This document shows positions 9,839 to 36,136 of a stretch of DNA of 64,000 bases, piece after piece. The translations under genes were made by a program, and so were the position numbers. Source of the stretch: Roseimicrobium gellanilyticum (lineage in GTDB: Bacteria; Verrucomicrobiota; Verrucomicrobiia; Verrucomicrobiales; Verrucomicrobiaceae); NCBI RefSeq assembly GCF_003315205.1, contig NZ_QNRR01000003.1, positions 248,001-312,000 on the forward strand. The letters run 5' to 3'. A model generated the notes under the pieces. It saw only the letters and a list, made by a program, of their open reading frames with translations, did not search any database and was not told where the DNA came from. Position 1 is the stretch's first letter, and the number at the start of each line of letters is the position of its first letter.

Positions 9839-9910
9839 CGTCCCCGTCAGGAATCGAACCTGAATTTAGGGTTTAGGAAACCCTCGTTCTATCCGTTGAA
9901 CTACGGGGAC
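9839..9910 (-). tRNA. tRNA-Arg (anticodon CCT)
   Basis: Reading the minus strand, a complete 72-base cloverleaf can be folded. The acceptor stem is GTCCCCG with CGGGGAC, the D arm is GTTC...GAAC, the anticodon arm is AGGGT-TTCCTAA-ACCCT with anticodon CCT, and the T arm is TCAGG-TTCGATT-CCTGA. CCA is not encoded. It is the integration target of the mobile element: bases 9876-9910, the half from the anticodon loop to the 5' end, are repeated at 49354-49388. The sequence upstream of the tRNA (from 9911 rightward) therefore belongs to the element. Confidence 0.95.
9876..9910. repeat. attL: 35-bp direct repeat within tRNA-Arg
   Basis: Identical over 35 bases to 49354-49388, beginning GGAAACCCTCGTTCTATCCG on the plus strand. 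It corresponds to the anticodon loop, anticodon stem, D arm and 5' acceptor strand of the tRNA. The match stops exactly at the tRNA 5' end on one side and in the anticodon loop on the other. Confidence 0.92.
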
Positions 9911-10310
9911 TTGTTAATTATGAGAACTTTACATCAATCAAATCGCCCCTAAAACCCCAAAGTTGCACCAAAAGTTGCACCTGCTGGGTCGTAAGTGCGT
10001 TGGTGTTTCGGGAGGTTTGAGAAAGTGGCATGAGCGGCTGAAGATGGCGAATTCTACGACCAAAGCAACACTCTTTCATTCACCTTAAACACTCCCGTAC
10101 GGGGGCGTATCGTCGTCAAAGTTGCCTCCAACCACCCCCTGAATAACTTTTTCCCGGTACACTCACTTGGACCTGGAAACCCAGCACCGAATTCACGTCA
10201 AGGTAGGCACTCTGCTACCACCTGAGTAAAGCCCCCGGCTAAATCGCTCAATGCCTCAAGTGCGGAGACAACCACAGACCTGAAAGCCCCACCCTCAAAC
10301 GAAAGACACG
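9911..10310. other. Gene-free left end of the element
   Basis: About 400 bases without a convincing gene. Visible items are a CATAAT hexamer read leftward 7 bases before the tRNA 5' end (possible -10 for the re-promoted tRNA), the 26-bp end repeat, a GTTT/GGTTTGAG-type motif around 10002-10022 that resembles sequences beside the right-end repeat, and the small palindrome CCCGTACGGG at about 10094. Confidence 0.5.
9959..9984. repeat. Left 26-bp end repeat, candidate integrase arm-type site
   Basis: This 26-base stretch contains two tandem GTTGCACC units 12 bases apart and is identical, in the same orientation, to 49250-49275 near the other end of the element. It lies 49 bases inside attL. Paired direct repeats at both ends are what arm-type binding sites of a lambda-type tyrosine integrase look like; the binding role is an inference. 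Confidence 0.6.
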
Positions 10311-12599: not shown

Positions 12600-12860
12600 G
12601 TGAAACCAAATCGACCTACCACCATCCGACTCCCAAGGTCAGGAACCCCAGACCCCGAAACGGGACTTTCACGCTCGGCACTCAACGCTCTGATTCTTCC
12701 CAGCGTCGCCAACGGTTTTAGACCACCTGTCAGGAGCGTCGTGCTGAAGAAGAAGAACGCGACACGGGGGATTCGCCTCATCGTCGTCGAGTCACTGATT
12801 GCTTACCTGAAGAGCCTGGAAACAGACCAAGCGCCTGAGGATTCACCCGCAGACGGCTAA
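12600..12860 (+). CDS. Small excisionase/regulator-like DNA-binding protein
   Basis: An 86-residue protein from a GTG start. The core TIRLPRSGTPDPETGLSRSA, LNALILP and RGIRLIVVESLIAYLKSL has the layout of small winged-helix excisionase-type proteins that read 'target selected - basic wing - tyrosine/leucine helix': a short helix-turn segment, a Lys/Arg-rich wing (VVLKKKNATRG) and a C-terminal helix. I infer a role as recombination directionality factor or repressor of the element, since it is small, basic, encoded on an element with a tyrosine integrase and upstream of the replication module. Function is not proven by any catalytic motif. Confidence 0.6.
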   Translation: MKPNRPTTIRLPRSGTPDPETGLSRSALNALILPSVANGFRPPVRSVVLKKKNATRGIRLIVVESLIAYLKSLETDQAPEDSPADG

Positions 12861-13991: not shown

Positions 13992-15344
13992 ATGAAAGAA
14001 AAAGACCAACATAGCCAGGGCGGCTCTCAGCCCACGTCAAGCAAGTCAGCATCTCAGTCCCCCTCCGTCGAAGTTTCCGAAAGCACCCCCATTCTGGATG
14101 CTTCCGCAAGGTTCGCAGAGGAAATCGAAGGCCCCAAGCAGGCTCAGGAAATATCAGCAGAGAGCAGCAACCGGTCAGATTCCGGAACTGCGCCTCTAAA
14201 AGATGATGATATACTAATCTCTCCTTCATCTCCCCATTTATTCATTCCCTCCCCTGTTTCAGCTTCTCGTGATTACAGTCTAATCCTTGACGGTCCTCGT
14301 GCTGTCTCCCCTGTAATCATCCAAGCTCCCACTGGCCCACAGACAATTCACAAGGTGGCCGGGGTTGGTGGAGCGCCGAAAGGCGAGAAGAAGACCCCGA
14401 ATACCTATAAGCGCATGGACCAACTCAACTGGTTCTCCTGGGATGAATTGGAAGCAAATGGAACACTACTGTCGGATAAGCAGAATCGGTTCCTGAGGGT
14501 AGCCAACACCAAGCGCACTCAGTATCAGGATGGTTTCGACAAGGGGAACTACTTTGAAAACATCTACCCACTCATTGTCTCCAACTACACCAAGTCCGAA
14601 AAGATTGTCTACTGTGGAAACATACTCAATGGGAAGAAAGTGCCCTGTCATCAATGGGCCTTCTGCAGTAAGTGCGCCTACGTGACTGGGATGGAATCAA
14701 GTCTCATGTATGCTCCGGCATTTAGTGAGACCAACTTTTTCCACCTCACATGCTCCTTCAATGGTCATCACTCTCTGGGTTCAACAAACTACCCAGTGAT
14801 GCAGGACTACTGGGAGGCCAATGAAGCAGCAGTCCGTCATCTTCTCAAAAGTGGCTGGATCGATGGTGCCTGTGTGGTTCATGAATTGGCTCTGCACAGC
14901 TTCGTTCCTGTTCGTGTGGTTCCCCATTCTCACGTCGTCATCACTGCGGATCGAATCAGTCCCGAATTGAAGCCTGCCCTTGTGGACTTCCTCACGAATC
15001 AACCAGGAATCGAAATGCCCCCTTCCATTGATGTTCGTCTCATTGACCATCAACGCGGCTTGGATCGTGTGCTCAAGTATCAAACTGAAGCCATCGACAT
15101 CAAACAAGCCTACGACACTGCCTGGCACAATCAGGTCGACACTGACCGGAAAGGCGCCATCGAACTGAATCAGCAATTGAAGGAATTCCTCGAATCATAC
15201 GGGGCATCCATCTATGGTTTCCCCCGAGTCATTCGCATGGGCAACCTACGACCCGGAACAAAGTCCTACATCGGCAAACTTCAGAAGGAACTGCGCAAGG
15301 CGTCCAAGCGTAAAAGAGCAAAGGCCAAGAAACAGCGTTCTTAG
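13992..15344 (+). CDS. Rolling-circle-type replication initiator-like protein
   Basis: A 450-residue protein with a Ser/Pro-rich N-terminal 130 residues followed by a folded domain. The domain order recalls Rep proteins of rolling-circle plasmids: a cysteine cluster (C208, C219, C225, C228; CHQWAFCSKCAY), a hydrophobic strand (FFHLTCSFNG), a two-histidine motif in a hydrophobic strand (VVPHSHVVITAD, H312 and H314) comparable to the metal-binding HxH motif, and a later KYQTEAID segment near Y363 where the nicking tyrosine would be expected. The usual lysine after that tyrosine is a glutamate, so the match is partial. Ends with a basic KRKRAKAKKQRS tail. Alternative: another zinc-binding DNA enzyme. 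The nearby TGCAT repeats fit an origin. Confidence 0.5.
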   Translation: MKEKDQHSQGGSQPTSSKSASQSPSVEVSESTPILDASARFAEEIEGPKQAQEISAESSNRSDSGTAPLKDDDILISPSSPHLFIPSPVSASRDYSLILDGPRAVSPVIIQAPTGPQTIHKVAGVGGAPKGEKKTPNTYKRMDQLNWFSWDELEANGTLLSDKQNRFLRVANTKRTQYQDGFDKGNYFENIYPLIVSNYTKSEKIVYCGNILNGKKVPCHQWAFCSKCAYVTGMESSLMYAPAFSETNFFHLTCSFNGHHSLGSTNYPVMQDYWEANEAAVRHLLKSGWIDGACVVHELALHSFVPVRVVPHSHVVITADRISPELKPALVDFLTNQPGIEMPPSIDVRLIDHQRGLDRVLKYQTEAIDIKQAYDTAWHNQVDTDRKGAIELNQQLKEFLESYGASIYGFPRVIRMGNLRPGTKSYIGKLQKELRKASKRKRAKAKKQRS

Positions 15345-19710: not shown

Positions 19711-20079
19711 ATGGAATACTATGTCCAGAAAGACGGCCAGCAGTATGGTCCACTCACCAGCACCACACTTCAGGAACACCTCCATGCTGGCACCTCTGCT
19801 CTGACGGACCTGACTTGGGACCAGAAAAGCGCTCAGTGGCTACCCATTGAGGAACTCCTACGGCTCCAGGGTAAACGACATTCGAAGTCCCTTCCCCGGG
19901 GTGTTGCCTGCCTCCAGTGCCTCAGCGGTCCAGATTCAGGGAAACGCGTACAACTCACTGAAAATCCACCAGTCATCATTGAGACCTCAGCAGACTCAAA
20001 TGTCTTGAGTGTCGACCCTGATGCACTACCCCACCATGTTCAGGTCAGTTGGGCGGAGTTCTCGCCTACGAGGCACTGA
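19711..20079 (+). CDS. GYF_2-domain protein, possibly truncated
   Basis: A 122-residue protein. Residues 1-60 (MEYYVQKDGQQYGPLTSTTL, TWDQKSAQWLPIEELL) are a GYF_2 domain: YYVxxxGQQYGP, a helix, and the W...WxP motif. This domain is frequent in Verrucomicrobiota and Planctomycetota, where it mediates protein interactions, often in membrane proteins. The remaining residues (CLQCLSGPDSGKRVQLTENP, VIIETSADSNVLSV) read like the first strands of an FHA-type domain that ends early, so the C-terminus may be lost. A strong Shine-Dalgarno sequence (CGGAGGAACAGCT-ATG) supports the start. The next gene begins 55 bases downstream. Confidence 0.75.
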   Translation: MEYYVQKDGQQYGPLTSTTLQEHLHAGTSALTDLTWDQKSAQWLPIEELLRLQGKRHSKSLPRGVACLQCLSGPDSGKRVQLTENPPVIIETSADSNVLSVDPDALPHHVQVSWAEFSPTRH

Positions 20080-21813: not shown

Positions 21814-22029
21814 ATGGCCAGAAATCGCCATTACTCTCCTGTCATCTCGCGGTTCGTTGTTTCCGCTCTGTATCATGAAGCTAAAGCACGCAGGATGCCC
21901 ATGACTAAACTCACGGATCATCTGTTGTGCCAGGCTCTCAGAGACACAGACGGCTGGAAGCAAGCTGAGACCCTCCGAGTGGCAGAAGAACCACCGACGT
22001 ATCCCTCGCAGCCATCCAAAGTCGCGTAG
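21814..22029 (+). CDS. Small basic protein, ribbon-helix-helix-like
   Basis: A 71-residue basic protein (MARNRHYSPVISRFVVSALY ...). The stretch SRFVVSALYHEAKARRMPMTKLTDHLLCQAL could form a strand and two helices, the order of ribbon-helix-helix DNA-binding proteins, with KRRMPMT-type turn between helices. A strong Shine-Dalgarno sequence (AAAGGAGACAAGCA) supports the ATG. A terminator follows at 22061. I infer a regulator of the element. Confidence 0.65.
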   Translation: MARNRHYSPVISRFVVSALYHEAKARRMPMTKLTDHLLCQALRDTDGWKQAETLRVAEEPPTYPSQPSKVA

Positions 22030-22121: not shown

Positions 22122-22706
22122 ATGGCAGTCAAACTCAGTGCCAACTACAGCAAAAAGCTCGGCCTTCCAGTGTTCAGCTCCCACTTCTTCAGCGTGTCTG
22201 TCGAGGTGGAACTGACTGACCTCTCCCAAGTCCAAGCGGAATGCGCAAAGCTCTACCAGCTCCTGCAGCAGTCCGTAGACAAGGAAATCAAGCAGGTCGG
22301 TTTTGTCCCCGATGAGTTCTTTGGCATCGACGCCATTAGGCAGGGACAGAACAGCCCACAAGGCCGTCCTCATCATCAGAACCAGAACGGCAACTGCTCT
22401 CACCGCAACGGGAACAGCCAAGGCCAAGACAAGGGTTCCAATGGTCATTCCCACTCCAGCAATGGAAACACTGACTCCTGGAACTGCACCGACGGACAGC
22501 GCGGGTTCATTCTCCGCATTGTTAACGAGAATCAAATCGACAAGCAGGAAGTCGAGGACCTGTCCCAGCAACTCTATCAGCTCGGAGTGAAGCAGCTCAA
22601 TAAGATGCAGGCTTCACAACTAATTGAGGAATTGCTGGCCAAGGCAGGAAAACCCTCAGGCCGATCCCGCTGGTCTCAACCCCGCAACCAACAGCAACCC
22701 TCATGA
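22122..22706 (+). CDS. Unknown element protein with Asn/Gly/His-rich centre
   Basis: A 194-residue protein. The N-terminal part (MAVKLSANYSKKLGLPVFSS, HFFSVSVEVELTDLSQVQAE) has a strand-helix arrangement; the middle (residues 80-125) is low-complexity, rich in Asn, Gly, His, Ser and Gln; the C-terminal part (RGFILRIVNENQIDKQEVED, QLGVKQLNKMQASQLIEELL) is helical. It overlaps the following PD-(D/E)XK nuclease gene by 4 bases (ATGA), indicating translational coupling and a likely shared function, perhaps as a recombination or ssDNA-annealing partner. I do not recognise the family. There is no Shine-Dalgarno sequence before the ATG. Confidence 0.7.
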   Translation: MAVKLSANYSKKLGLPVFSSHFFSVSVEVELTDLSQVQAECAKLYQLLQQSVDKEIKQVGFVPDEFFGIDAIRQGQNSPQGRPHHQNQNGNCSHRNGNSQGQDKGSNGHSHSSNGNTDSWNCTDGQRGFILRIVNENQIDKQEVEDLSQQLYQLGVKQLNKMQASQLIEELLAKAGKPSGRSRWSQPRNQQQPS

Positions 22707-23560
22707 ACACACTCCTTGCTGCCATACCCCCAAGAGAGAAGATCCAGTCCATTGAGAAGCCAGAAGCCAAACCACCAAGCGAGAAGGACATCATCGCCGG
22801 TCTGCAGAAAATCGTCTCCTCCTCACGGCTGGGGACCTTTCTGCAATGCCGGCTGAAGTTCTATTTCAGATACGTGGCTCAAATCAAGAAGGCAAAGACA
22901 GCAGCTTTGTTTCTTGGGAACGCCGTGCACGAAACCCTCAAAGCCTGGAACAAGACAAGATGGAAGGAGAACCGCCTCCTGTCCCTGAAAGAGCTCCACG
23001 ATGAGTTCTCAAAGGCATGGGAGGAGCAATCCAAAGAAGAACCCGCAAACTGGGAAGGTGAAGAGGAAGCCGAAAAGTTAACAGGCTGGCGGCTCCTGGA
23101 AACCTACATGCGTCAGTACGGGCTCTTCCTTGCCATCAAACCTGAGGCCGTGGAAGTGCCTATTGAAGTGGACCTCGTCAACCATGGTTTACCAAGGCTG
23201 GTCGGGGTGCTGGACTTGGTGCAACAACGCCGGGTAGTCGATTACAAGACCTCCGGCACCACACCAAAGGAAGAACAGGCGGCGCACACCCACGAAGTCC
23301 AGACATGCACCTATGCCGTGCTCTATCGCGAAGCCAATGGCCAGCGTGAACTCGGTATCGAACTGCATTCACTGGTGAAGCTCAAGAACCCCAAGCTGAG
23401 CATCATTGAACTGCCACCCATGAGTGATAGCCAGCAAACCCGGCTGTTTCACCTCATGGAAGCCTATGTAGCAGGACTGGAGAGAAGGGACTTTGTGCCC
23501 TCCCCAGGCTTTGGCTGCATGAGTTGCGAGTTCTTCAATGAATGCCGGCGCTGGTCTTAA
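22703..23560 (+). CDS. PD-(D/E)XK exonuclease of the RecB/Cas4 type with Fe-S cysteines
   Basis: A 285-residue nuclease of the PDDEXK_1 family. It shows SSSRLGTFLQCRLKFYFRYV at residues 39-58 (including C49), the histidine of motif I (GNAVHETLKAW, H76), the catalytic GVLDLV (D171) and VVDYKTS (D180, K182), the QxxxY motif (Q200, Y204) and the C-terminal cluster GFGCMSCEFFNECRRW (C272, C275, C281) that together with C49 would bind a 4Fe-4S cluster, as in AddB and Cas4. This suggests processing of DNA ends. Translational coupling to the preceding gene and position in the replication-type module point to element replication or recombination rather than CRISPR adaptation, as no cas1 or array is present. 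Confidence 0.87.
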   Translation: MNTLLAAIPPREKIQSIEKPEAKPPSEKDIIAGLQKIVSSSRLGTFLQCRLKFYFRYVAQIKKAKTAALFLGNAVHETLKAWNKTRWKENRLLSLKELHDEFSKAWEEQSKEEPANWEGEEEAEKLTGWRLLETYMRQYGLFLAIKPEAVEVPIEVDLVNHGLPRLVGVLDLVQQRRVVDYKTSGTTPKEEQAAHTHEVQTCTYAVLYREANGQRELGIELHSLVKLKNPKLSIIELPPMSDSQQTRLFHLMEAYVAGLERRDFVPSPGFGCMSCEFFNECRRWS

Positions 23561-23672: not shown

Positions 23673-23936
23673 ATGAAACACATCCTACTCAAGATCATCA
23701 TCGTGTTCCTACTCGCGGCCACTATCCCTCCTGCTCATGGAGGCTGGTTCGACAAGAAAGAAGACCCAACACAGAAAAGGCTAGTCCAGGTCGAACAGGA
23801 ACTCACCCAGCAGCGCAAAACCAACGATTCCTTGTCCGCCATCATCGGTGTCCTGGGCGTCGGCTGTGTGCTGCTGCTTGTCATCGGAACCGCTCTCGGA
23901 GCCAAAGTACGCCGCCAACATGACCACCAACCCTAA
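23673..23936 (+). CDS. Small exported or membrane protein
   Basis: An 87-residue protein. An N-terminal hydrophobic segment (LLKIIIVFLLAATIPPAHGG) resembles a signal peptide with cleavage near AHG. It is followed by a charged helix (QKRLVQVEQELTQQRKTN) likely to be a coiled coil, and a C-terminal transmembrane segment (SAIIGVLGVGCVLLLVIGTA) with a basic end. The next membrane-protein gene overlaps it by 17 bases, so the two are probably partners in the envelope. Function unknown. The leader before the ATG is C-rich and has no Shine-Dalgarno sequence. Confidence 0.65.
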   Translation: MKHILLKIIIVFLLAATIPPAHGGWFDKKEDPTQKRLVQVEQELTQQRKTNDSLSAIIGVLGVGCVLLLVIGTALGAKVRRQHDHQP

Positions 23937-24462
23937 TCACCGCTGGCCTGAAGACGAGGAGGAAGAGCACGACCAGCGACTGGAAGTGCTCCCACCTGAA
24001 CGCCGGCAGAAGCCTAAGAACTGGGTCCGACGTTTGCGAATCTACCTCTCTCAACACTGGAACCCCGAAAAGCTGGAGGCACCGAAGGTAGACCCTGAAT
24101 TGCCTGAGCTGAACGGCGTGGAAAGGTCTGCAGAGGTATTTCGCTACACGACTCTCTCCACGGAACACTGGCTCTCTCCCAAAGGTTACCTGCGGGAATG
24201 GCTGCGGTTCAATGCCAAGGTGTTCGCGTGCCTACTCATCCCGTCGATTCTGGTGATGCCTTTGGTGACTCTTACCTTGGGTCAGTTCGTCACCTGGGCC
24301 GCACTGATTGCAGCCACTACGGCCAGCGTCATCCTGTTTCCGCTGTCGGCACTCATCTTCATCGGTCTCATCAGTGGATTGGTCTATCTCGGCAAATCCC
24401 TGCTGCTGATGCGCCGGATGCGTGATGGAAGGCGTGGACCGTATGACGAACGATACTATTGA
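23920..24462 (+). CDS. Membrane protein with two or three transmembrane segments
   Basis: A 180-residue protein from the ATG at 23920 (MTTNPNHRWPEDEEEEHDQR); the frame extends further upstream within the preceding gene but that part is spurious. The first 100 residues are hydrophilic and acidic or basic. Hydrophobic segments follow at about 108-128 (FACLLIPSILVMPLVTLTLG), 133-150 and 150-172 (FPLSALIFIGLISGLVYLGK). It ends in a basic RRMRDGRRGPYDERYY tail, which would be cytoplasmic. I recognise no family; the overlap with the preceding small membrane protein suggests a two-component membrane complex. Confidence 0.65.
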   Translation: MTTNPNHRWPEDEEEEHDQRLEVLPPERRQKPKNWVRRLRIYLSQHWNPEKLEAPKVDPELPELNGVERSAEVFRYTTLSTEHWLSPKGYLREWLRFNAKVFACLLIPSILVMPLVTLTLGQFVTWAALIAATTASVILFPLSALIFIGLISGLVYLGKSLLLMRRMRDGRRGPYDERYY

Positions 24463-24568: not shown

Positions 24569-26032
24569 ATGAACCCCGAACCCATTACCCTGCCCGTCTC
24601 GGAGCTCAAACCCGCTCTCGCTGGACTGGGCAAAATCATCCTCAACAAATCCACCCTACCAGTCCTCAGAACCATCAAGGTAGAAAGAACATCTGATGGC
24701 TGGATCTGTCTCACTGCTACCGACCTCGACCGGTTCGTGACAGTACGCTTGGAACAGCCAGCCAAAGGTGAACCATTCGCCTTACTGGTTCCCTTCGAAG
24801 ATCTAGCTAAGCTCACCAAATCGAGCAACAAAGGAGACAGCATCCATCTTGAGCCCGGCACCAAGGAAGACGTCATTCTGCGCTTCAACCTCGATGACCA
24901 ACTCGGAGAAACCAGGGCGCCGTCATTCCCGGTTCAGGAGTTCCCTGCCATCCCAAGGATTCAGGCAAACCCTGTCCCGGTGAGTGAATCCTTCCGTCTG
25001 GCTCTCCATGAAGCAATGGCCTGTTCCAGTACTGACGAGACCAGATATGTCCTCAATGGTGCCTGCATCGATGTCAGCCAGCCAGAAGCTCACTATCTCG
25101 TTGGTACGGATGGCAGGCATTTGTTCAGCTGCAATTCCTTCAACCTGCCCTTCCAGAAGTCGCTCATCATCCCCAAACACAAATTCCTAGGGTGGAAAGA
25201 CTTCAACCTAGACGGAGCATGGCAGATGAAGCTCACTGACAGCTCGGACGGCAAAAACCAACTCCTCCAGATTAGTAGCAGAAGATGGCGGTTCATCACC
25301 CGGCTCATCGATGGCAACTATCCCAACTGGCGGCAGGTGATTCCGAACCCCAGAGATGCCAGAACCACCTTGACCTTGGAACCCGACAAACTCGATGCGG
25401 TGATTCAGCTCATCGAACGGATGCCAAACCACGATGAGCAGTACCACTCGCTTGGCATTGAGTACCATGAGAAGGAATGCAGGCTGGCCTTCAAAAGTAC
25501 TGCGGAAGCTCCCTGGACTCGCGTTCCCCTGCCCCACTGCAAAGCCGAAGGAAAACCGGTGACCATCTTTGTGGACCGCCGGCTTCTCCTCAAGGCCCTG
25601 CAGTTCGGTCTCACTACCATTGGTATCATTGATGAACTGTCCCCGCTCAGGTTCTACCTCGGCGGGAGACAGATGATCATCATGCCGGTGAGACCCAATG
25701 AATCAAACCCTCAAGACAACAAGGCTCCGGCACCACCTCCCAAGGAAACGCCGATACCTTCTCCACCACCAACAATTCAAGAAAGGAAACCCCAATCCAT
25801 GCCTACTGAACCCTCTGATACTCCTTCACCACCCGCCAATACGCTCCTCGGCCAGCTTCAACTCGCCATTGAGGAAGTGGATGAAATCGGCGCCCAACAT
25901 CACCAGACCTACAAGAAGCTGCGTGATGTGAGCACCAAGCTTCGCGGGATGCTGATGACACAAAAGGCCAACGACAAGGAACTGCGCACCCTTCGTCAGC
26001 ATCTTCGCGGGCTTCAGACGATGCGCATTTGA
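24569..26032 (+). CDS. DnaN-like DNA polymerase III beta sliding clamp with C-terminal extension
   Basis: A 487-residue protein whose first 375 residues follow the beta-clamp plan. The N-terminal domain has LKPALAGLGKIILNKSTLPV and ICLTATDLDRFVTVRLE; the second has VGTDGRHLF (180-186) and SLIIPKHKF; the signature DGNYPNWRQVIP is at 248-259; the C-terminal domain ends FYLGGRQMIIMPVRPN, like the clamp's terminal MPMR. DnaN forms a ring that tethers the replicative polymerase and other partners to DNA. After it come a Pro-rich linker (about 385-425) and a coiled-coil tail of about 60 residues, both absent from housekeeping DnaN. As an element-borne paralogue it may load the element's own replication or repair proteins (inference). 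Confidence 0.82.
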   Translation: MNPEPITLPVSELKPALAGLGKIILNKSTLPVLRTIKVERTSDGWICLTATDLDRFVTVRLEQPAKGEPFALLVPFEDLAKLTKSSNKGDSIHLEPGTKEDVILRFNLDDQLGETRAPSFPVQEFPAIPRIQANPVPVSESFRLALHEAMACSSTDETRYVLNGACIDVSQPEAHYLVGTDGRHLFSCNSFNLPFQKSLIIPKHKFLGWKDFNLDGAWQMKLTDSSDGKNQLLQISSRRWRFITRLIDGNYPNWRQVIPNPRDARTTLTLEPDKLDAVIQLIERMPNHDEQYHSLGIEYHEKECRLAFKSTAEAPWTRVPLPHCKAEGKPVTIFVDRRLLLKALQFGLTTIGIIDELSPLRFYLGGRQMIIMPVRPNESNPQDNKAPAPPPKETPIPSPPPTIQERKPQSMPTEPSDTPSPPANTLLGQLQLAIEEVDEIGAQHHQTYKKLRDVSTKLRGMLMTQKANDKELRTLRQHLRGLQTMRI

Positions 26033-26615: not shown

Positions 26616-27383
26616 ATGTACCAACAAGAAACACCCCTCAAACGTCCCAAATGCAATCTCGTCCTGCATTGTGGTGGTCGTGAAGCCAGCCTCGATGAAG
26701 TCAAACGGGTCAAAACCCCGAAACCTACCGAGACCTGGCAGCCAATTCCCCACCTCGACCTCATCAGCGAAGTCCAGGACACCCTCGCCAAGACCAACCT
26801 CACCATTGGCGCTGTCGCTCACAGCCTCAGCCACAATGGAAGCAGGTACTTTGGTCTGATGGAGGTGCAAGGGAAGCAATCCTCCGACGACTACACCTGG
26901 GTTCTCGGCCTCAGGAACAGCCACGACAAGACCTTTCCTGCAGGTCTTGTTGCCGGCGCCAGTTGTTTCATTTGTGATAATTTGTCGTTTTCGGGAGAGG
27001 TTAAATTCGCCCGGAAACACACCCGCCACATTGTTCGTGACCTACCTTTCATCACGGGAAGAGCCATTGGTCAATTGATGGAAAAGTGGCACTACCAGGA
27101 CAAACGCATCGCAGCATACAAGAAAGCTGACCTCGACGACATTCAAGCCCACGACCTTGTCATCCGGGCTACTGATGTCGGCGTGTGCAGCAACCGTCTG
27201 ATTCCTTCCGTGCTGCATGAGTGGCGGAAACCGCGTCATGCGGTATTTGAAGAGCGGAATGTGTGGAGCTTGTTCAATTCGTTCACGGAGTCTCTGAAAG
27301 ACGGCAGTCTCGCAGAGTTACCGAAAAGGACGGAAGCTCTCCATGGACTGCTGGATGTCCATGTTGGGGTCGGGCTCAACTGA
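26616..27383 (+). CDS. DUF932-like phage/plasmid protein
   Basis: A 255-residue protein. The central block YTWVLGLRNSHDKTFPAGLV-AGASCFICDNLSFSGEVKFARKHT is the hallmark of the DUF932 (phage/plasmid-like) family, which is common on plasmids, phages and integrative elements. After it comes RDLPFITGRAIGQLMEKWHY and a helical C-terminus. The family's biochemical activity is not known to me; it is associated with replication or maintenance modules. The C-rich leader has no Shine-Dalgarno sequence, and a strong terminator follows at 27396. Confidence 0.75.
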   Translation: MYQQETPLKRPKCNLVLHCGGREASLDEVKRVKTPKPTETWQPIPHLDLISEVQDTLAKTNLTIGAVAHSLSHNGSRYFGLMEVQGKQSSDDYTWVLGLRNSHDKTFPAGLVAGASCFICDNLSFSGEVKFARKHTRHIVRDLPFITGRAIGQLMEKWHYQDKRIAAYKKADLDDIQAHDLVIRATDVGVCSNRLIPSVLHEWRKPRHAVFEERNVWSLFNSFTESLKDGSLAELPKRTEALHGLLDVHVGVGLN

Positions 27384-27734: not shown

Positions 27735-30700
27735 CTACAAAAAGCGTTCGTCAATGAGCGCCTTTGCTTCCAAGGATAGATTTCCGCCCTCCAAGGTCGT
27801 CACCAGCCGGCCTGGGAAATGCCTGTCATACCACTCCTTCTTAGTCTGCCACTTCCGCTTGTATTCCTCGCGATGCAGCATCCCCAGATGTTCCCAGAAG
27901 AAGCGTTCACCGCGCCAGTTGATCGTGAAATCCGGCAGATAAAATGAACCATCCGGTGCATACAGCGGCTTCTCATATTCGAAAGCCACTTCCCGATCGC
28001 ACAACATGTTGGCGATGATCACCTCGGACTTCGAACGTACCATAACGGCTGCAAGAGTCTTGTGAATCTTCCGATCTTCCAAGTATCCCTCACGCCGCAA
28101 CAGCTCAAAGCCTTTAGGAGCCGGGCTGAATTCGAAGAGCGAGCAGTTGATGCCCACAAGATGCGAGCTCTCCGGCCGGCGAATCTTAAGAAGTGGTGCA
28201 ATGTCTTCCTCGATGAGCAGCGTGCAATGCCTGCTCGCACGCGTCAGCCCCGTGTAGAACAACTCTGGGGATAGCAGCGCCGTCTTTTGCTTCGGCAGAA
28301 TGAAATATACTCTGTCAAATTCACTGCCCTGCGACTTGTGAACAGAAATAGCATAGGCCAGTTCCAAGTTCTCCTCGGGCGGCTCTTCTTTGATCCAACG
28401 TTCCTTGCCGTTCTTCAGGGTCTTCCCCAGCTCCTTGCCGTATCCCACCGCCAGATGCTCTTTCCGCGCAAAGCAGACGCTGAAGCGTTTCATACGAAAG
28501 CCGCTCCATTTCCATTTCGAGCCGTCGAATCCATGCGGCTTCACATAGCCAAGTTCCCCATTGAAGATTTCACAGGCAACATTCGCCCGCTTGTTGAAGT
28601 CCCACGCATGCAGGGGTTCAGAAGCACCTCGATTTCGTACCTGCATCACTTTGTCGAAAAGCGTGATGCCTGCCATTGAGCCCACACGCTCCAGCCTGCC
28701 TCCTCTTGCTTCCTTCTGCAGCCGCAAATTGACTGCCTCCGTGCCGAAATCCTCATGTATGTAAGGCGAGAGCACTTGATGATATTCAGGTCGCAACGGT
28801 CCCTCTTCCGACTTGGCGGCTTCAATCCAGATTTTGTGCTGAGCTTCAGGATCCACCTTCGTCCCAGTATCCTCTTCCATGTCGGCAATGATTCGCGCAA
28901 CCAGCTTTTCCATCAGGTCATTCGCGTCCTTCCAATAGATCGCCCTCAGATCCTTGTCGAGTGCCCCATCAAAAGGCAGATCCTGCAACCGCTGGAACAT
29001 CTCCTCCGCCCGGAGGCTTTCCTCTTCATCCTTGACTGATTTATCAGGCCTCCTCACAAAGACCGAAGCCAGATCAAGAATGCCCGTGCCTCGTCCTGTC
29101 ATGCGATTTTCCATCTGGCGGAGATTGACCGTCAGCTCTCCCACACTCTGTGGATGATTCTCTCTGAGCCAGTCGATGACGTCGGCAAAAACCTTACCTC
29201 GTCCGATAGGAGGTAACTGGTTGGGATCCCCCACGATAATCATCCGCTGCACCGTGTTCCAATTGATCGCACGGAAAAGGGCCGCAGTCAGCTCCAAATC
29301 GAGCATGGAAGCCTCGTCGATGACATAGGTTGTCACCTTATCCTCACGTTGCCCACCGCTGGTCCGCAGAGTCAAGTTGGGATTCAGCCAGCCACGTCTG
29401 GCAAGAAAGGAATGGATAGTGCTGGCACCTTTGCCAGTCTTGTCCCGGATGCGGTCTGCGGCCTTGCCCGTGGGGGCCAGCAGCAGGAACGTGGCATCCG
29501 CGCCGTGAGCCTTTTCAACCGCCTGGAGTATGCGACGGATGATGCTGGTTTTGCCTGTGCCAGCTGCTCCACAAACCACAGCGACGGGACGGCGGAAGAC
29601 CTGATCGCAGACAACGGCTTGTGCAGCCACGGCCTTTTCATACTCGCCTCGGTCCTTCTCAACCAGCTTACTTCCGGCTTCAAACAGCAGTTCCTTCCAG
29701 TACTTCTGCGTGACAGGCGCCTTGAACGCGATGTCCGCATAACCGGCCAACTTGCGAATACGGCTCTCAATCTCCCTCTCCGCCTCATACACCCGGCGGA
29801 GATAGGCATACTCGCACGGTCCCTCCTTCCGGAATACGATGGCTTCCTCCAGACGTTCACGGTCCACATCGAGGTAGGTGTCCTTGAACGCCACCCGCTT
29901 CCAATCTGGAAGAAGCTCCAGTCGGTGATTCACGTCCTGTAATAACTGTCCACAGCTCAGGAACGTGTGCTTGGTTTCGTATCGAAGGCGTTCCACGCAC
30001 ATGGCCCGAAGTCGTCGCCAATCGTCAAGGTCGTAGAGGAAGCTGCCACCGAGGTCGGGAGAAGGAAAGGCTCCATGATCGATACGCGAAAAGGAAATAA
30101 TATCATCCGGATCTTCGCCAATGAACTGCTCGACCAGCAAATAGGGATTATCGCAGATCTCCTGAAGGTCGCCGCTCAGGCAATGGTCCGCTCGCTCGTC
30201 GGATAGGATCCGCTCCATCTGATCCTTGGGCAGATCGAACCTTGGGAGGATAGCGGATAACATCTTCCGCTCGCCCTGTGACTTCAGTTTCCACTGGCGT
30301 CGAATCCGGGTGGCGTCAGGGTCGCTCATTTTGAGTCCAGGAATCTCGTGGGCCTTCCCGTCCAGCCAGGCGAACAAGGCGGTGCAAAATTCCTTGTCCT
30401 TCCCCTCGGCAGCAGCGGCGCGGAAGACTGTCACACCCTCCCCCATGCCAAGGAGGTCCATCACGCGAGCCAACCCCGGATACAATCCGCGCCCTTTCCA
30501 CAGTTCCGCCAGCAAGCTGTTCAGCCAGGCTAGGCGCAATGTCCAGTCTTCCGTGTCGTCGCCGATGTCTCGTAAATAGGCTGCGATCTCAACGAATCGT
30601 TCGATCAGAGTCAAAGCATCGTCATCACTGACGTGGCGTGAGGCATACTTGAAGCAACGCGCGTTGTCAGGGACCAACGTGATCTTCTCCAACACTTCCG

Positions 30701-31364
30701 GCTTGTCGAGATAGCGATGGTAGGGAATTCGCAACCCTTGATCCGGGTAGTGAGTGACGACATTGCGCTGCCAGACAAACCCGCCGGCAAACTTCTCTTT
30801 GGTGGCTTCGTCCGTTCCCTCGTAGAATTCGATGTCGCCCAGTCTCTTGATTCTCGCGACACCGACCACGATGTACCGCTTCTCATCCTCACTGCTCAGC
30901 GGGTTGCTGTAGTTCGCGTAATGGAACACCAAACTTTCATCCGGAACCACCTCTTCGAAGTAAGCCTTGGCCAGCTCCAGCCGCTTGTCGTTGCTCACGT
31001 ATCCGCTTTCCTTCACCTCGTCATTGTACATTGCATCATATGGCCAAATGCACACGGATGCGGGAGGCAGATGCCATTCTGTGCGTTTGCCGCTCGGAAA
31101 GAATGCCGGAGGCTCGTCGTAGGCAGTAAGTGGTTCCGGACCAAAAGCGTTAATGCTGTAGATGCACGGGGGGATGCCGTTGACCTTGGAACAGCATTTC
31201 CCCGCCACGGACTCTTCCCACGCTAGGTCACGCTTGTCCTTGATCTTTTCGCCGGGATACGAGTGTGGACCAACACAATACCGGTTACTTGACGGCTTCC
31301 GGCAAATGCGACCGTTCCAGCCGTCCATGTGCCAGGCCAGGCGTGCTGAGAGATGAGTTGGCAT
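27735..31364 (-). CDS. RecD-like SF1 helicase fused to a C-terminal nuclease domain
   Basis: A 1209-residue protein, last gene of the defence operon. Residues 1-220 form a conserved unknown domain (LSARLAWHMDGWNGRICRKP, CIYSINAFGPEPLTAYDEPP, VFHYANYSNPL). A helical middle leads to an SF1B helicase: Walker A GAAGTGKTS (599-607), DEAS (683-686), IIVGDPNQLPPIGRGK, and the late motif AYAISVHKSQGSEFDRVYF, followed by GLTRAS. This is the RecD/TraA-type arrangement, usually 5'-3' on DNA. The last 100 residues (RSKSEVIIANML, FYLPDFTI with D1145, FFWEHLG with E1158) resemble a PD-(D/E)XK or Vsr-like nuclease. It lies 68 bases after the GHKL-helicase gene. I infer a DNA-degrading or unwinding effector. 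Confidence 0.87.
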   Translation of the reverse strand: MPTHLSARLAWHMDGWNGRICRKPSSNRYCVGPHSYPGEKIKDKRDLAWEESVAGKCCSKVNGIPPCIYSINAFGPEPLTAYDEPPAFFPSGKRTEWHLPPASVCIWPYDAMYNDEVKESGYVSNDKRLELAKAYFEEVVPDESLVFHYANYSNPLSSEDEKRYIVVGVARIKRLGDIEFYEGTDEATKEKFAGGFVWQRNVVTHYPDQGLRIPYHRYLDKPEVLEKITLVPDNARCFKYASRHVSDDDALTLIERFVEIAAYLRDIGDDTEDWTLRLAWLNSLLAELWKGRGLYPGLARVMDLLGMGEGVTVFRAAAAEGKDKEFCTALFAWLDGKAHEIPGLKMSDPDATRIRRQWKLKSQGERKMLSAILPRFDLPKDQMERILSDERADHCLSGDLQEICDNPYLLVEQFIGEDPDDIISFSRIDHGAFPSPDLGGSFLYDLDDWRRLRAMCVERLRYETKHTFLSCGQLLQDVNHRLELLPDWKRVAFKDTYLDVDRERLEEAIVFRKEGPCEYAYLRRVYEAEREIESRIRKLAGYADIAFKAPVTQKYWKELLFEAGSKLVEKDRGEYEKAVAAQAVVCDQVFRRPVAVVCGAAGTGKTSIIRRILQAVEKAHGADATFLLLAPTGKAADRIRDKTGKGASTIHSFLARRGWLNPNLTLRTSGGQREDKVTTYVIDEASMLDLELTAALFRAINWNTVQRMIIVGDPNQLPPIGRGKVFADVIDWLRENHPQSVGELTVNLRQMENRMTGRGTGILDLASVFVRRPDKSVKDEEESLRAEEMFQRLQDLPFDGALDKDLRAIYWKDANDLMEKLVARIIADMEEDTGTKVDPEAQHKIWIEAAKSEEGPLRPEYHQVLSPYIHEDFGTEAVNLRLQKEARGGRLERVGSMAGITLFDKVMQVRNRGASEPLHAWDFNKRANVACEIFNGELGYVKPHGFDGSKWKWSGFRMKRFSVCFARKEHLAVGYGKELGKTLKNGKERWIKEEPPEENLELAYAISVHKSQGSEFDRVYFILPKQKTALLSPELFYTGLTRASRHCTLLIEEDIAPLLKIRRPESSHLVGINCSLFEFSPAPKGFELLRREGYLEDRKIHKTLAAVMVRSKSEVIIANMLCDREVAFEYEKPLYAPDGSFYLPDFTINWRGERFFWEHLGMLHREEYKRKWQTKKEWYDRHFPGRLVTTLEGGNLSLEAKALIDERFL

Positions 31365-31432: not shown

Positions 31433-34400
31433 CTAATCCTCAAAGTATCTCGCGCAAAAGTGGTAAGGATGTCGGTCTTGGAATCTCCCGAGATTGTCCA
31501 ACACCGTAACAATTCGGCAGAGCTTCGTGCCTCCGTTCTTTTCTCCACGCAGGCCACGTCCCACGATCTGCATGTACCGCACAGGACTGAATACCGCTCG
31601 TGAGATCAACACCATATCTGTTTTAGGCGCATCGAATCCGGTACTCAAAACGCTGTGGTTGCAGAGAACACGAATCTTGCCTTGCTGAAAACGCTTCAAG
31701 AAATAGCGCCGAGCAATTGTCTGTGTGCCACCGCTCACCGCCGCCGAGGGGATGCCCTGCAGGTTTAGGCGTGCCGACATCTCTTCCGCGTGTGAAACTG
31801 AATTGGCAAAGAGCAATATGCAACGCTCGTTCGCAGCTCTGATTCGCTCCACCAACCGTTCGTTTCGATCACTGTTGCCAGCAAGTCGCTGGTTGATCGC
31901 TTCTAACAGATTCTCAAAAACAATGCCTTCCCACGGTTGAGGAATCTGAGCGAGTCTCTCAATCTCGTCTGGCAACAAGCCTGTGCCTGACTCCAATGCT
32001 TCGCTGACTATCTCCGAAAGAACGCCCTGCCCGCGAAGCCGTGCATGGAGATTTTCCTGCTTCACGGGTTGCCACCGATTGTCAAAACGTTGCGCAAGCC
32101 TGCGGCTCTCCTCGTCATCCATTCGGAAAGGGGTGGCGCTCAAACCTAGAATGGGAGGCTCGTCCTTTTGAGGCGCCCCAGCTCGAGGGGCCTCAGCGTC
32201 CAACCAACGCAGCAGGTTTGTGTAGCTCGGCGCAATTGCATGATGGCACTCATCAACCACAACTAATCCTGGGCACTGAAGCCAAGCCAAGGCACTGGAT
32301 CTGATGCGGTTGTTTAGCGTCTGAATAGATGCAACTATCACAACAGGATTACCGCTGTCATCTATGGCAGGATCTGGATTCCCTCCCCAAAGGCGCACGA
32401 TTCGAAGCTCGGTATTGTCCTCCCCCAAGTTGACCCACACTTGGCGGAAAGCTTGCACTGCCTGTTCGCAGAGCTCATCGGTTTGAGCAATCCACAACAC
32501 TGTTCGTCTAAGAGATTTTGGTTTCAGGACGAGAACGACTGCAGCTTGAACGGTGACTCGTGTCTTGCCGCCCCCGGTAGGAAGGCTGACAACTGCCCGC
32601 CGGCGCTTGTTCCCAAGTTTGATCAATTCTCGAATTCCATGAAAGACATCCTCTTGGAAGTCATGCAAGGGAGGCAAATGGATCGGGCCATTGACGAACT
32701 CCTCTGGGTCGCGTCTGACGTCTGGGGATGTTCCGAATTCTTCAGGAAACCCGATGCTAAGGGCAAAGGCCCGCGCTTGGGCAGGTGTCCATCGTCCTGG
32801 TGGATTCAGTCCTTCCTCAGCAAAGGTTTTTTTCAATGCGCCTAACGTTGCCGGGCCTAGTTGGGCGAGCACGAGAGCTGCCAGAGAGAGTCCGCGACAT
32901 TGCTGTATCCAATCGACATGGGACAACTCGCCCAAAGCCTGCCTGAGAGGTTCGTCACGTTTCCCGACCGCTAGAAATAGCCGCTCTTCCAGCGTCGAAC
33001 CTGATGCCACTCCCGCTCTGAGTTCGTCCACCTTTCCGTCCCCAAGGAGACGCAGTGCTTCGGCGGAATCACTTTGGAGCCATCCAGCAGCAGCCACTTC
33101 TCGCAATACGTGTTCCAGTCTCGCGGACCTGGAGAGTTCGGAAAGTTGTTGGTGATCCAAAATCAGCATGCTTTCCCACAAGAGACACGGAGTCACATGT
33201 GATTCTGCCGAAATCCGCATCTTTAACCCCGCAACCGGAAGACAAAGGGCATGATGTTTCGCGTCTTCTCGCAACACCTCTCCAAGCTCAGGCATTGCGG
33301 CAACCAGTGGGCTTGCAGGTCCGGTTTCATGGTGCCACTCGGGGCGCATCATCTCCGCAAGATCCCTTGCACCTTCATCGAGCCAAAGCCTCATGGTGGC
33401 GTTATCCAATGTCACCACAATGTAGCCGTCGCTTCGCGCACGGGATGCCAAATCAGGCGAGCCAGTAACACAGATTTCCTCAAGCAGAACTTCTTGCTCA
33501 TCAACCCACAGACGATCTGGCACAACCCCATCCCTAGCCGCTCCTCTCCAGAGTTCCCCTAGTGAATCTTGCTCGAGAGAGGCTTTGGTAGTCAGTTCCT
33601 CGATCATTCCCAGCCACAGGCAACAGATCTCTTCACTGCAAATTTCGACCTCCGGAACTGCCGAGAGCAGGTATTCCAGTGCGGATTCCACATCTTGCCA
33701 CTGTTGCAGCATTGCAACTACAGGTTCATGCCTCCGCTCGACCAAAGCATGAAGGCGTACGGTTCTGGAACCAAGTTGGACCGTGCCGTAGCGGTGCAAA
33801 ATCCATATCAATGGGTGAGGCACCTCAATTCGATCATATGTTGAGACGGTCGCGTGGCCGAACGAGATTTTCTTTGCAAATTCACCTTGGTTGAACCGCT
33901 TCAGAAGATGCGCACTAAACTTGGCGTTGGGCTCGCCCTCCAAGCTGATGAGGAGCGCCCATCCGCGCGGAAGTCTCAATCGGAATGGTTGCAAGTAGCC
34001 CCATCTGGCACTTTCGCTGACATTCGTACGATAGAATTCGCGCCAGTAGGACATCCAAGGTCGAAGGCTATCGTGATCCTCAAGCTCAATTGTACCTTCA
34101 GGGAGCTCCACGACGCCCAGCATCTCCAACCACTTTTCGTCTCGTTCGTGTTCGATCTCATCAACCAAGACCCCGCTATTTGACGTGTCAACATCCGGGT
34201 CGACAAGCATTCCGGGCTTCAGGACCTCATTGCCGGGCTGCCAAGTTTCGTCCCGCCTGAGAACTCGAATTGCAGTACGATTTCCAGCCACAAAGCTCGA
34301 TCCAATCTCGAAAGGACACGCCCTCAGGTTCTTCCAAAACACCCTCCACCTGTCCGTTTCGAGATCTGCGTTCCAATCTGGAATATCCCTGCGAAGAGTA

Positions 34401-36136
34401 CTCAGTATATCGTGCCAGGCTGCCCCATCGAGCGGCCTTACCTTCATCACTCCCGAGAGAATCCGCCTTGCATCCTGTTCACTGGCGACTGCCTGCGACA
34501 CGGGATACAATCCGTGGGGTAAAATTACGCCGGGAGGCGCAAATACAGCCTTCGGAGAAGTAATCCAGGCGCCATCTTCAATGGGCACAATGGCAAGATT
34601 GGGAAGGACCTGTTCCCACTCCGTGGGACCGCACTCATTTTGAAACGCCTCGGCAAGCTTGAGAACTCGAAGGCAATGCGAAAGTTCGTGCGAGGTAAGG
34701 AACGAGAACCAGCGCCAGGGCTCCTGCCGCAGCAGGTTCGGAAAATGCTCGTCGTCGGAGGAGGAGTTCGCCCTCAGCCGTTCCGAGAGCACTTGCAGTC
34801 GACCGCTGCGCTGCCGCTGCGAGCAAGAGGGATGCACATGGCACTCTAGTGCCCTTGCGCTCGCCAGTCCCTGCCACATTGTCGTCAGGCCTACATCTTC
34901 CTTGGGTGCCCTCCATAGCTCGCTAGCAGGGCGTAAATTGCCAGCTGCATCGGGAACTACCGCCGCCGTCTCAAACTCCTTCCAGACCGCTTCCACAAGG
35001 GGAGCAGCCTCCTCGTCCTTTCGTTCCATTCGTCTCGGAAATGCATCGATGACGCATCCAGGATCCGATTCCAGATAAAGACTTGGCAGCGTTGCAACAA
35101 TCAGCTTGGCAGCCTCCTGCATTAACAAAGTGTTCCACGCACCACCAACGATGGCATTCCGGTCGTCGTTTACTTTCCACGGGGCATTCAGAATTCCCGG
35201 CAGGTATGTCAGCGTATGCGTCGGGAAGAATGCCCAGAATCGACCGGCCTCCTCTCTCGCCGCGTCGATGGGCATTGCCCAAGCCAATGGGACGGAGTCC
35301 CGCGAGTGAATGTGCGTGGCATCGTCTCTCGCACGTGGCTCCGTGGTCTGTACCTGTCGAGAAGCGAGATGCCACCGGCTATTGTTCCCATCCACCGAAA
35401 GTACGCGTTCATTTTCAGACGGCGCGAATACCCGAAGTTCTTTTACAGAGCCTGTGCCCGCATCTAGGGAAAGCTGAAGAGACACCGGGAAAAAGAGAAG
35501 AAACTCAGTCGGAAACTCAGAAATCTCAGTCCGTAGGCGATCCCGAAGATCAGGCGCCGGAACGTTTACCCGGACTATGGTTTCAGCCCAGTCAAATTGA
35601 GCCAACGTTGAGTCTTTAGCACGTTCCGCATCCTCTAGCGGCCACGCCAGTCGGAGACCTGGACAATGTGAAACACCGAACCGGCTATGAAGTTCATCCC
35701 GACACCTTTCGGGTTCGAATCGAATGGCACCACGAGACCGTGTAAAGAAATCGATCTTTCCGCCCAGTTTCAACAGCGACTTGAAACCAAGACCAAATCG
35801 CCCAATCTGGTTGCCTCGCTTTGGGGACGAATGGGACCTCAGGAGTGCCTTCAACCCTTCGTCAGTCAGGGGAGCACCTGTATTAGCGACATAGAGATGC
35901 TTCGAATCAAGGACTACCTGAATTCTGCCGTCACCCAGCAAAGTGTTATCTTCGTGAGCGTCGAGGATGGCATCTGCGCCATTTTGAACCAGCTCCAGAA
36001 TCTGTCGATAGGCGTACCCCCCCGCTAAAACCCTCTGCTCGATCCCATAGTGCTCCAGGATATCGTCCTTGTACCTTTCATACGCACCGAGCCGTTCATA
36101 ATTCAGTTTCTGGACGACTTCAGAGAGGATTTTCAT
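31433..36136 (-). CDS. GHKL (sacsin/Hsp90-type) ATPase fused to an SF2 DEAD/DECH helicase
   Basis: A 1567-residue fusion. The N-terminus has the Bergerat ATPase motifs of sacsin-like GHKL proteins: RQILELVQNGADAIL (N-box, 45-59), HLYVANTGAPLT (G1-like) and RFGLGFKSLLKLG (113-125). About 900 residues without recognised motifs follow. From 1154 comes a complete SF2 helicase: LHDFQEDVF (Q-like), LPTGGGKTRVT (Walker A at about 1187), VVDECHHA (1294), GLSATPFR, then ILLFANSVSHAEEM, LSTGFDAPKTDMV and MQIVGRGLRG. GHKL ATPases and SF2 helicases meet in several restriction-like systems, but this size and fusion is uncommon. Placed 25 bases after res and 68 before the RecD-like gene. Confidence 0.87.
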   Translation of the reverse strand: MKILSEVVQKLNYERLGAYERYKDDILEHYGIEQRVLAGGYAYRQILELVQNGADAILDAHEDNTLLGDGRIQVVLDSKHLYVANTGAPLTDEGLKALLRSHSSPKRGNQIGRFGLGFKSLLKLGGKIDFFTRSRGAIRFEPERCRDELHSRFGVSHCPGLRLAWPLEDAERAKDSTLAQFDWAETIVRVNVPAPDLRDRLRTEISEFPTEFLLFFPVSLQLSLDAGTGSVKELRVFAPSENERVLSVDGNNSRWHLASRQVQTTEPRARDDATHIHSRDSVPLAWAMPIDAAREEAGRFWAFFPTHTLTYLPGILNAPWKVNDDRNAIVGGAWNTLLMQEAAKLIVATLPSLYLESDPGCVIDAFPRRMERKDEEAAPLVEAVWKEFETAAVVPDAAGNLRPASELWRAPKEDVGLTTMWQGLASARALECHVHPSCSQRQRSGRLQVLSERLRANSSSDDEHFPNLLRQEPWRWFSFLTSHELSHCLRVLKLAEAFQNECGPTEWEQVLPNLAIVPIEDGAWITSPKAVFAPPGVILPHGLYPVSQAVASEQDARRILSGVMKVRPLDGAAWHDILSTLRRDIPDWNADLETDRWRVFWKNLRACPFEIGSSFVAGNRTAIRVLRRDETWQPGNEVLKPGMLVDPDVDTSNSGVLVDEIEHERDEKWLEMLGVVELPEGTIELEDHDSLRPWMSYWREFYRTNVSESARWGYLQPFRLRLPRGWALLISLEGEPNAKFSAHLLKRFNQGEFAKKISFGHATVSTYDRIEVPHPLIWILHRYGTVQLGSRTVRLHALVERRHEPVVAMLQQWQDVESALEYLLSAVPEVEICSEEICCLWLGMIEELTTKASLEQDSLGELWRGAARDGVVPDRLWVDEQEVLLEEICVTGSPDLASRARSDGYIVVTLDNATMRLWLDEGARDLAEMMRPEWHHETGPASPLVAAMPELGEVLREDAKHHALCLPVAGLKMRISAESHVTPCLLWESMLILDHQQLSELSRSARLEHVLREVAAAGWLQSDSAEALRLLGDGKVDELRAGVASGSTLEERLFLAVGKRDEPLRQALGELSHVDWIQQCRGLSLAALVLAQLGPATLGALKKTFAEEGLNPPGRWTPAQARAFALSIGFPEEFGTSPDVRRDPEEFVNGPIHLPPLHDFQEDVFHGIRELIKLGNKRRRAVVSLPTGGGKTRVTVQAAVVLVLKPKSLRRTVLWIAQTDELCEQAVQAFRQVWVNLGEDNTELRIVRLWGGNPDPAIDDSGNPVVIVASIQTLNNRIRSSALAWLQCPGLVVVDECHHAIAPSYTNLLRWLDAEAPRAGAPQKDEPPILGLSATPFRMDDEESRRLAQRFDNRWQPVKQENLHARLRGQGVLSEIVSEALESGTGLLPDEIERLAQIPQPWEGIVFENLLEAINQRLAGNSDRNERLVERIRAANERCILLFANSVSHAEEMSARLNLQGIPSAAVSGGTQTIARRYFLKRFQQGKIRVLCNHSVLSTGFDAPKTDMVLISRAVFSPVRYMQIVGRGLRGEKNGGTKLCRIVTVLDNLGRFQDRHPYHFCARYFED

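Follow-up and report, generated by a model that had tools for sequence, protein, structure and literature searches.

A tailed second sliding clamp characterises a class of integrative islands carrying defence-like genes in Verrucomicrobiota

In bacteria, the beta clamp DnaN (E. coli 1MMI and others) has three domains, a client groove and a C-terminal MPxR, and these features are common to the clamps described in this paper. Phages and plasmids with clamps of their own were known before, and on some plasmids the clamp gene is accompanied by loader genes. The clamps of Rhizobium phage 16-3, Caulobacter phage Sansa, a Planococcus plasmid and Nostoc plasmid pn3 are element-borne like the present ones, and the plasmid clamps sometimes have annealing, WGR, DUF1257/DUF2997 or clamp-loader genes as neighbours. 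Integrase, AlpA-like and primase genes are known from P4-like satellites. Genes of these kinds are also found in some of the islands examined here, and the satellites are described as having defence hotspots in the accessible part of PMC9122126. In contrast to them, the five islands delimited in this paper span 39-69 kb and carry a clamp and a nuclease, some of them also a ligase. Pipolins, according to the accessible part of PMC7385651, are integrative elements with a DNA-synthesis factor of their own, as are the present islands; pipolins bring a B-family polymerase, whereas the islands, judged on this point by the clamp alone, bring a clamp.

As seen in Table 1, the window (the whole stretch of 64,000 nucleotides analysed here, from Roseimicrobium gellanilyticum contig NZ_QNRR01000003.1, positions 248,001 to 312,000) contains an open reading frame of 487 amino acids, composed of a beta clamp core, a proline-rich linker and a tail. 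The likely start is the ATG at 24569 and not the GTG at 24422, because homologues begin at the same position. The Pfam model DNA_pol3_beta passes narrowly (24.7 bits, cut-off 24.4) and DNA_pol3_beta_2 reaches 45.5 bits (cut-off 27); the Pfam scan of the 487-aa protein gave no match to the third clamp-domain model. Almost the full profile of PHROG 947, 'DNA polymerase processivity factor', aligns to residues 6-377 (E 4e-29), and the clamp-family profile matches solved beta clamps over positions 12-372, equivalent to three domains, with a best E of 8e-20. Judged by these alignments, the island clamp is composed of three tandem clamp domains. Against TIGR00663, the DnaN equivalog, it scores 80.4 bits, below the curated cut-off of 137.65; therefore, the protein is a clamp, but not one filed as a replicative DnaN. 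The beta-clamp plan through the MPVR end of the core and the signature DGNYPNWRQVIP, both reported in the initial annotation of this DNA, are found in the translation. The approximately 110 additional residues noted there are real and conserved, and consist of a variable proline-rich linker followed by a helical-looking tail.

Table 1. Features of the island and its surroundings, in window positions.
Feature	Position	Strand	Remarks
tRNA-Arg (CCT), integration target	9836..9910	-	ARAGORN
attL, 35-bp direct repeat inside tRNA gene	9876..9910		exact copy at 49354-49388
26-bp repeat, left end, 12-bp internal period	9959..9984		exact copy at 49250-49275; presumably arm-type-like
Small left-end gene, presumably AlpA-like	12600..12860	+	no Pfam match; 54-63% identical in C7 island, a G012 island, L032, L038
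Rep-like protein	13992..15344	+	relatives in a G012 island (40%) and L038 (32%)
GYF_2-domain protein	19711..20079	+	also on left side of L024 and L027
g2	21814..22029	+	71 aa, opens the cassette; by eye a possible ribbon-helix-helix regulator; no Pfam match
g3	22122..22706	+	194 aa, no known family
PDDEXK_1 nuclease, Cas4/AddB-like	22703..23560	+	4-bp overlap with g3
Small putative membrane protein	23673..23936	+	by eye
182-aa putative membrane protein of cassette	23914..24462	+	by eye
Tailed beta clamp	24569..26032	+	core ~24569-25693, Pro-rich linker ~25694-25858, helical tail ~25859-26029
DUF932 protein, last cassette gene	26616..27383	+	
RecD2-like helicase, cargo	27735..31364	-	
TmtA-like sacsin-type ATPase/helicase, cargo	31433..36136	-	
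Type III restriction-like subunit, cargo	36162..39284	-	
FRG-domain protein, cargo	39313..40152	-	
Type III-like DNA methyltransferase, cargo	40177..43275	-	
Z1-domain helicase, cargo	44774..47170	-	
Tyrosine recombinase	48068..49240	-	Phage_integrase PF00589, 49.9 bits, cut-off 27.1
26-bp arm-type-like repeat, right end	49250..49275		
attR, 35-bp direct repeat	49354..49388		

The helical-looking tail, of about 57 residues, was aligned across 44 clamps; its reading as a coiled coil was made by eye. The tail profile matched 118 ORFs (89 distinct proteins) among the 41,043 ORFs of 330 sequences compared, and all 118 also match the core-only clamp profile; no tail was found in this set on any non-clamp protein. 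Among 46 cassette clamps, the residues equivalent to window L185, P252 and P373 are the same in all 46, T180, G182 and M372 in 45 and L162 in 43. Less constant are V257 (34/46) and R375 (37/46), and position 184 is not conserved. These are taken as the groove positions, assigned through E. coli numbering matched on the alignment to solved clamps. On the sequence comparison, the client-binding groove is largely kept in cassette clamps. The dN/dS between the window clamp and that of L024, in the same genome, is 0.12 for the core, 0.18 for the tail (with dS saturated) and 0.48 for the linker, and between the two copies of genome G012 it is 0.20, 0.06 and 0.46, respectively. The core and tail look to be under purifying selection.

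The window genome (G000) comprises 7.93 Mb in 32 contigs. Its ordinary dnaN is a 372-aa frame on contig C4 with a full clamp match, which rules out the island clamp as the sole dnaN, the case that would have refuted the initial annotation; the window protein is an additional clamp. Four cassette clamps exist in this genome, on C3 (the window), C7, C11 and C12, and the latter three are 80, 52 and 51% identical to the window clamp. Clamp matches at E 1e-40 or better were found in 30 of 96 genomes, G000 included, and 28 of these fall among the 59 genomes of the window's family. In named genomes, the clamp profile gave 57 loci, nearly all labelled Verrucomicrobiota; Brevifollis gellanilyticus, Verrucomicrobium sp. 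BvORR034 and Verrucomicrobium sp. BvORR106 are among the carriers. The other labels belong to one Desulfomonile and one Proteobacteria MAG contig, which could be mis-binned, and the Akkermansia muciniphila labels of two named loci (L049, L051) are probably wrong. Within the phylum, 44 of 387 genomes contain the cassette gene g3 (E<=1e-8). Outside the window's family, 67 g3 places were found in 41 genomes, of which 25 (21 genomes) have a clamp match within 6 kb and 42, some on short contigs, do not, including all those in Akkermansiaceae-like genomes and in G211; this count leaves out G000, G002 and G006, where split matches were merged. In all of 20 further clamp loci outside the family, g3 is present and the clamp frame, counted from stop to stop, measures 424-621 aa, the clamp ends aligning as tail. 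Chromosomal DnaN of 20 genomes measures 362-392 aa.

In the maximum-likelihood tree, the 46 cassette clamps lie on one side of a branch, and 20 chromosomal DnaN and 9 phage and plasmid clamps on the other (SH-aLRT 100, and again 100 with the tail columns removed). The trees come from quick searches; some branches are long (L122, L228 and others), which makes finer placing unsure, and groups are defined unrooted, by the side of a branch on which they fall. The phylogeny against chromosomal DnaN that the initial annotation proposed as a check thus gives the cassette clamps as a separate group. By sequence, tailed clamps across Verrucomicrobiota belong to a single group, to which none of the tested chromosomal, phage and plasmid clamps belongs. 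Compared to bacterial DnaN, they differ in the extra residues, the tree group, the multiple copies on islands and the score under the equivalog cut-off. None of the 9 phage and plasmid clamps falls in the group, and no such C-terminal tail is found in the 8 of these sequences inspected; the Nostoc clamp has an N-terminal extension instead.

Clamps on mobile elements are not rare, contrary to the earlier view. The window clamp as query (E<=1e-3) has matches in 36 of 50,697 phage and 44 of 72,556 plasmid records, and the Nostoc plasmid clamp (E<=1e-10) matches 245 plasmid records, some of them chromosome-sized. On plasmid pn3 of Nostoc sp. UHCC 0926, which is typed as conjugative (L259, 7900-16911), genes for DUF1257, DUF2997, an AAA ATPase, a WGR protein, dnaN, dnaX and holA are clustered. 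This is a clamp with its own loader, and a similar dnaN-dnaX-holA arrangement was seen elsewhere. On a Planococcus lenghuensis plasmid (L260, 6878-9068), a Rad52-family gene directly adjoins dnaN. A phage origin of the cassette was considered and rejected: scans of viral contigs, in which distant relatives can be missed by the patterns used, gave 0 clamp loci with the single protein and 1 remote locus, of 24% identity, with the profile. The scan for g3 gave 1 locus, and g3 has no match in the phage or plasmid records. One viral contig was found with g3 and the nuclease (L130, 72.7 kb). DUF932 is common in environmental viral contigs (290 confirmed), and in the best 80 of these 290 stretches (L131-L210) profiles found no g3, nuclease or clamp.

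The clamp gene is carried by an integrative island in a tRNA-Arg gene, at 9876-49388. The 35-bp repeat has only two copies within the window, and the 26-bp repeat is a tandem pair situated just inside both island ends. Together with the tyrosine recombinase at one end, these repeats set the size of the island at 39.5 kb and bear out the earlier assignment of the clamp to a mobile element. At 4 of 8 further loci, repeats of 31-60 bp were found at tRNA-Lys, -Leu, -Phe and -Thr genes, and the stretches they bound are 54-69 kb long. For G000-C12 (whose contig ends near the clamp), G001, G033-C10 and G030-C5, no att repeat of at least 15 bp was found by a search that required one copy no more than 3.5 kb from the recombinase and a second past the clamp, a design that may not suit G001. 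Likeness between G001 and the window ends at window position 9783, with no tRNA detected at that point. At five additional loci, the cassette starts just downstream of tRNA-Tyr (3) or tRNA-Leu (2), and no second copy of the tRNA 3' end was found downstream of the cassette in these 3 and 2 loci. At the tRNA-Tyr site, the likeness of cassette-bearing and cassette-free genomes ends about 20 bases past the tRNA. Comparison of L295 (2278-15706) and L296 (2177-2483) reveals about 13 kb of extra genes beside tRNA-Tyr in one genome only, an insertion hotspot.

Of the 21 family cassettes (11 genomes), 14 have a tyrosine recombinase within 40 kb, where about 2.1 would be expected at random; 7 of the 21, several of them near contig ends, have none within this distance, and G211, which has no cassette clamp, is left out of the count. 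Deeper in the phylum, among the matches listed, a recombinase is found within 40 kb of at least 9 of 20 cassettes. Tandem pairs with an 11-bp period occur upstream of g2 in 5 of 20 loci, a figure that stands without a chance control, and other short repeats also turned up.

The gene order of the cassette is g2, g3, PDDEXK_1 nuclease, 1-2 membrane-like proteins, a WGR-ATP-dependent DNA ligase, clamp, sometimes a 71-aa protein, and DUF932. This order and the counts in 20 loci come from loci fetched for their clamp. Queries with the window proteins found g2, g3 and the nuclease each in 20 of 20 clamp loci and DUF932 in 17; the ligase family is present in 14 of the 20. In the 57 named loci, many of which are cut by contig ends, the nuclease was found in 38, g3 in 37, DUF932 in 36, g2 in 33 and the ligase in 29. 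In a variant of the cassette, DUF932 is replaced by an uncharacterised protein of about 370-515 aa together with two small proteins and an AAA ATPase. The two small proteins are presumably DUF1257 and DUF2997, a pair annotated by these names on the Nostoc plasmid. The ligase is absent from the window cassette, in which 106 bp separate the membrane gene and the clamp, and is present in the C11 and C12 copies. In G211, five g3-nuclease-DUF932 copies (L113-L117) lie in one 3.75-Mb contig and are 93-98% identical over 2-3 kb; their surroundings are otherwise different, with no clamp nearby.

The nuclease, the DUF932 protein and the Rep-like gene that had been placed beside the clamp in the initial annotation are all present (Table 1). 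The nuclease shows a good PDDEXK_1 match, and the Cas4 and AddB models match it under their curated cut-offs; compared to Cas4/AddB-type PD-(D/E)XK nucleases, it is a stand-alone protein, operon-like with g3 and with no fused helicase. The predicted structure of g3 has a beta-beta-alpha N domain, a disordered middle and a three-helix C domain (confident). The DUF932 model (mean pLDDT 68) consists of a helix, three strands and a long helix, and Foldseek found nothing for it at E 0.001. For DUF932 as a single-strand annealing protein no support was found, with no annealing protein among the matches listed and no Foldseek match at that threshold. The best VIA-align row for the model is the TnsE C-terminal domain (Z 6.0, rmsd 3.8, 108 aligned), and such a Z may reflect a common arrangement only. 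TnsE is a clamp partner. Against solved structures by sequence, the best E for g3 and DUF932 is only 0.012. No convincing conserved clamp-binding motif was found by motif search in the cassette partners. Two motif matches were frequent, both in the nuclease: one, in 19 of 21, is probably structural, a Cys-helix stretch, and the other is found in 13 of 21, with the window nuclease not among them. According to the accessible parts of the two papers, E. coli RecB (PMC13254535) and H. pylori DNA ligase (PMC4976356) bind the clamp groove. Such contacts in other bacteria make a nuclease-ligase-clamp cassette mechanistically sensible.

No description of the clamp-cassette linkage was found in the literature searched, outside which most subscription papers fall, and no paper in it treats DUF932 together with a sliding clamp. 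Publications on Verrucomicrobia and sliding clamps (including PMC8357120), in their accessible parts, do not appear to treat island clamps. The accessible text of work on plasmid clamps, integrative elements, satellites and clamps with islands contains no island-clamp cassette among the matches listed, and the accessible main text of a polyvalent-protein paper (PMC5512222) is without DnaN, sliding clamp, WGR or DUF932.

The replication genes of the islands vary. PrimPol-D5 proteins are found in two islands, the C7 island and one G012 island, and a Rep-like protein is found instead in the window, the second G012 island and L038; no PrimPol was seen in the window island. The HUH-like motifs of the window Rep-like protein were seen by eye only, and it has no Pfam (E<=0.05) or PHROG match. 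No VirD4-type coupling protein (PF02534) was matched in G000 or G012. The terminase profile phrog_2 gave five matches in these two genomes, four of which lie outside the delimited islands; the fifth (window 32240-32770, 23.7 bits) is inside a cargo helicase and probably reflects ATPase likeness. For packaging genes in general, the matches listed cover 25 of 65 PHROG families.

The cargo of slots, 3' flanks and four further islands matches models of Lamassu, type III restriction, GajA, AriA, mad3, PtuA, Drt2, pAgo, CBASS cyclase and others, as single candidate genes. A Lamassu LmuB match is among the slot genes, along with other candidates, mad3 and mad2 models match in 5' flanks too, and transporters and enzymes are also carried as non-defence cargo. 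At E<=1e-10, PADLOC gave 242 families in 90 slot and 3' proteins versus 22 in 68 5' proteins, totals that are inflated by related models and come from sets unequal in size, raw for protein number and size. The slot and flank genes were taken from a simple ORF caller, and the flank sets leave out L036, L042 and L043. In the window, the minus-strand block at 27735-47170 looks like one large defence system or several, and a single ORF at 16883-18661 with CBS domains, a weak Eco57I stretch, DUF7662 and DUF4268 is an odd fusion or remnant. Between same-genome copies, the window/L024 and G012/G012 pairs have 80-89% DNA likeness only in blocks, nearly all of them core genes, with differing gaps between. 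The third pair, L025/L026, is alike over 6.4 kb and gapless.

Taken together, the protein is a genuine and conserved second clamp, and it is the hallmark of a class of integrative islands whose cargo is defence-like. As to its role, the balance tips slightly towards a dedicated processivity clamp of tRNA-integrated Verrucomicrobiota islands with defence-like genes, serving island replication or recombination. Most likely, it acts as the island's own processivity ring and as a tool-belt for replication and recombination, a mechanism that we infer. Once the island is excised, its PrimPol or Rep protein would prime it. The clamp loader of the host would then place the island clamp on DNA, as suggested by the retention of the groove that the loader uses. 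The groove may be bound by DNA polymerase III of the host and by the nuclease and ligase of the cassette, and the flexible tail may hold one of the cassette proteins, g3 being the likeliest. In this way, end trimming, annealing, fill-in and sealing would be brought together during island replication and recombination. Against this explanation stand the lack of a clamp-binding motif in the partners, the 42 of 67 g3 places that are clamp-free, the window copy without ligase and PrimPol, the modest share of deeper cassettes with a nearby recombinase (9 of 20 among the matches listed), and the clamp score under the DnaN equivalog cut-off. The initial annotation had suggested an independent replisome adaptor or a decoy clamp. 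The former survives as an element-specific replisome or recombination adaptor, the best reading of an additional clamp on an island with nuclease, DUF932 and Rep-like neighbours; the decoy does not.

Several rival explanations were weighed against the dedicated island clamp. It is possible, though unlikely, that the main work of the cassette is recombination, by which defence genes are shuffled from island to island, island replication not being its job. On this doubtful reading, nuclease, annealing factor, clamp and ligase would recombine islands via the conserved core genes, which would explain the variable genes in slots between them. The likeness confined to core-gene blocks in two of three same-genome pairs is consistent with such exchange, but ordinary host recombination also makes mosaic blocks, and the gapless L025/L026 pair argues the other way. 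Slot genes such as the LmuB match and other candidates, and the excess of defence-model families in slots and 3' flanks over 5' flanks, also point to shuffling, the latter comparison being raw for protein number, size and redundant models. The clamp-less core repeated five times in G211 favours recombination too; however, PrimPol or Rep-like proteins on some related islands point to replication. An anti-phage role of the cassette itself, with the clamp surveying phage replication forks or ends and bringing the nuclease to them, is improbable. That a nuclease is paired with a conserved clamp, and that both sit among the defence-like genes of tRNA islands, would suit it, but the integrase, att repeats and replication genes suffice to explain the location, and at E 0.001 the clamp, g3 and DUF932 have no PADLOC match; the combination of nuclease, ligase and clamp would look like maintenance, not attack. 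Least probable by far is the decoy, a ring that occupies the clamp-binding motif of a phage or host polymerase and thereby blocks it. The kept client groove could allow it to compete, but purifying selection on core and tail, a tail that would be superfluous for a decoy, and linkage across the phylum to DNA-processing enzymes (nuclease, g3 and often ligase) rather than to any target speak against it.

Beyond the dedicated island clamp, a broader and more speculative picture can be drawn, which is held only tentatively. Phylum-wide tRNA-integrated islands might run a portable recombination-replication engine on their own clamp, with the tail docking g3 and the groove docking the nuclease and ligase, and this engine would both copy the excised island and swap defence genes via the core genes. 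If this is true, the engine would make defence islands self-assembling, which bears on the question of what causes defence genes of bacteria to be clustered and mobile in islands. As a natural example of a clamp with its tail tethered, the protein is also a possible tool-belt design. Across a phylum, a conserved candidate machine of clamp, nuclease and often ligase lies at the core of such islands, and its role is testable.
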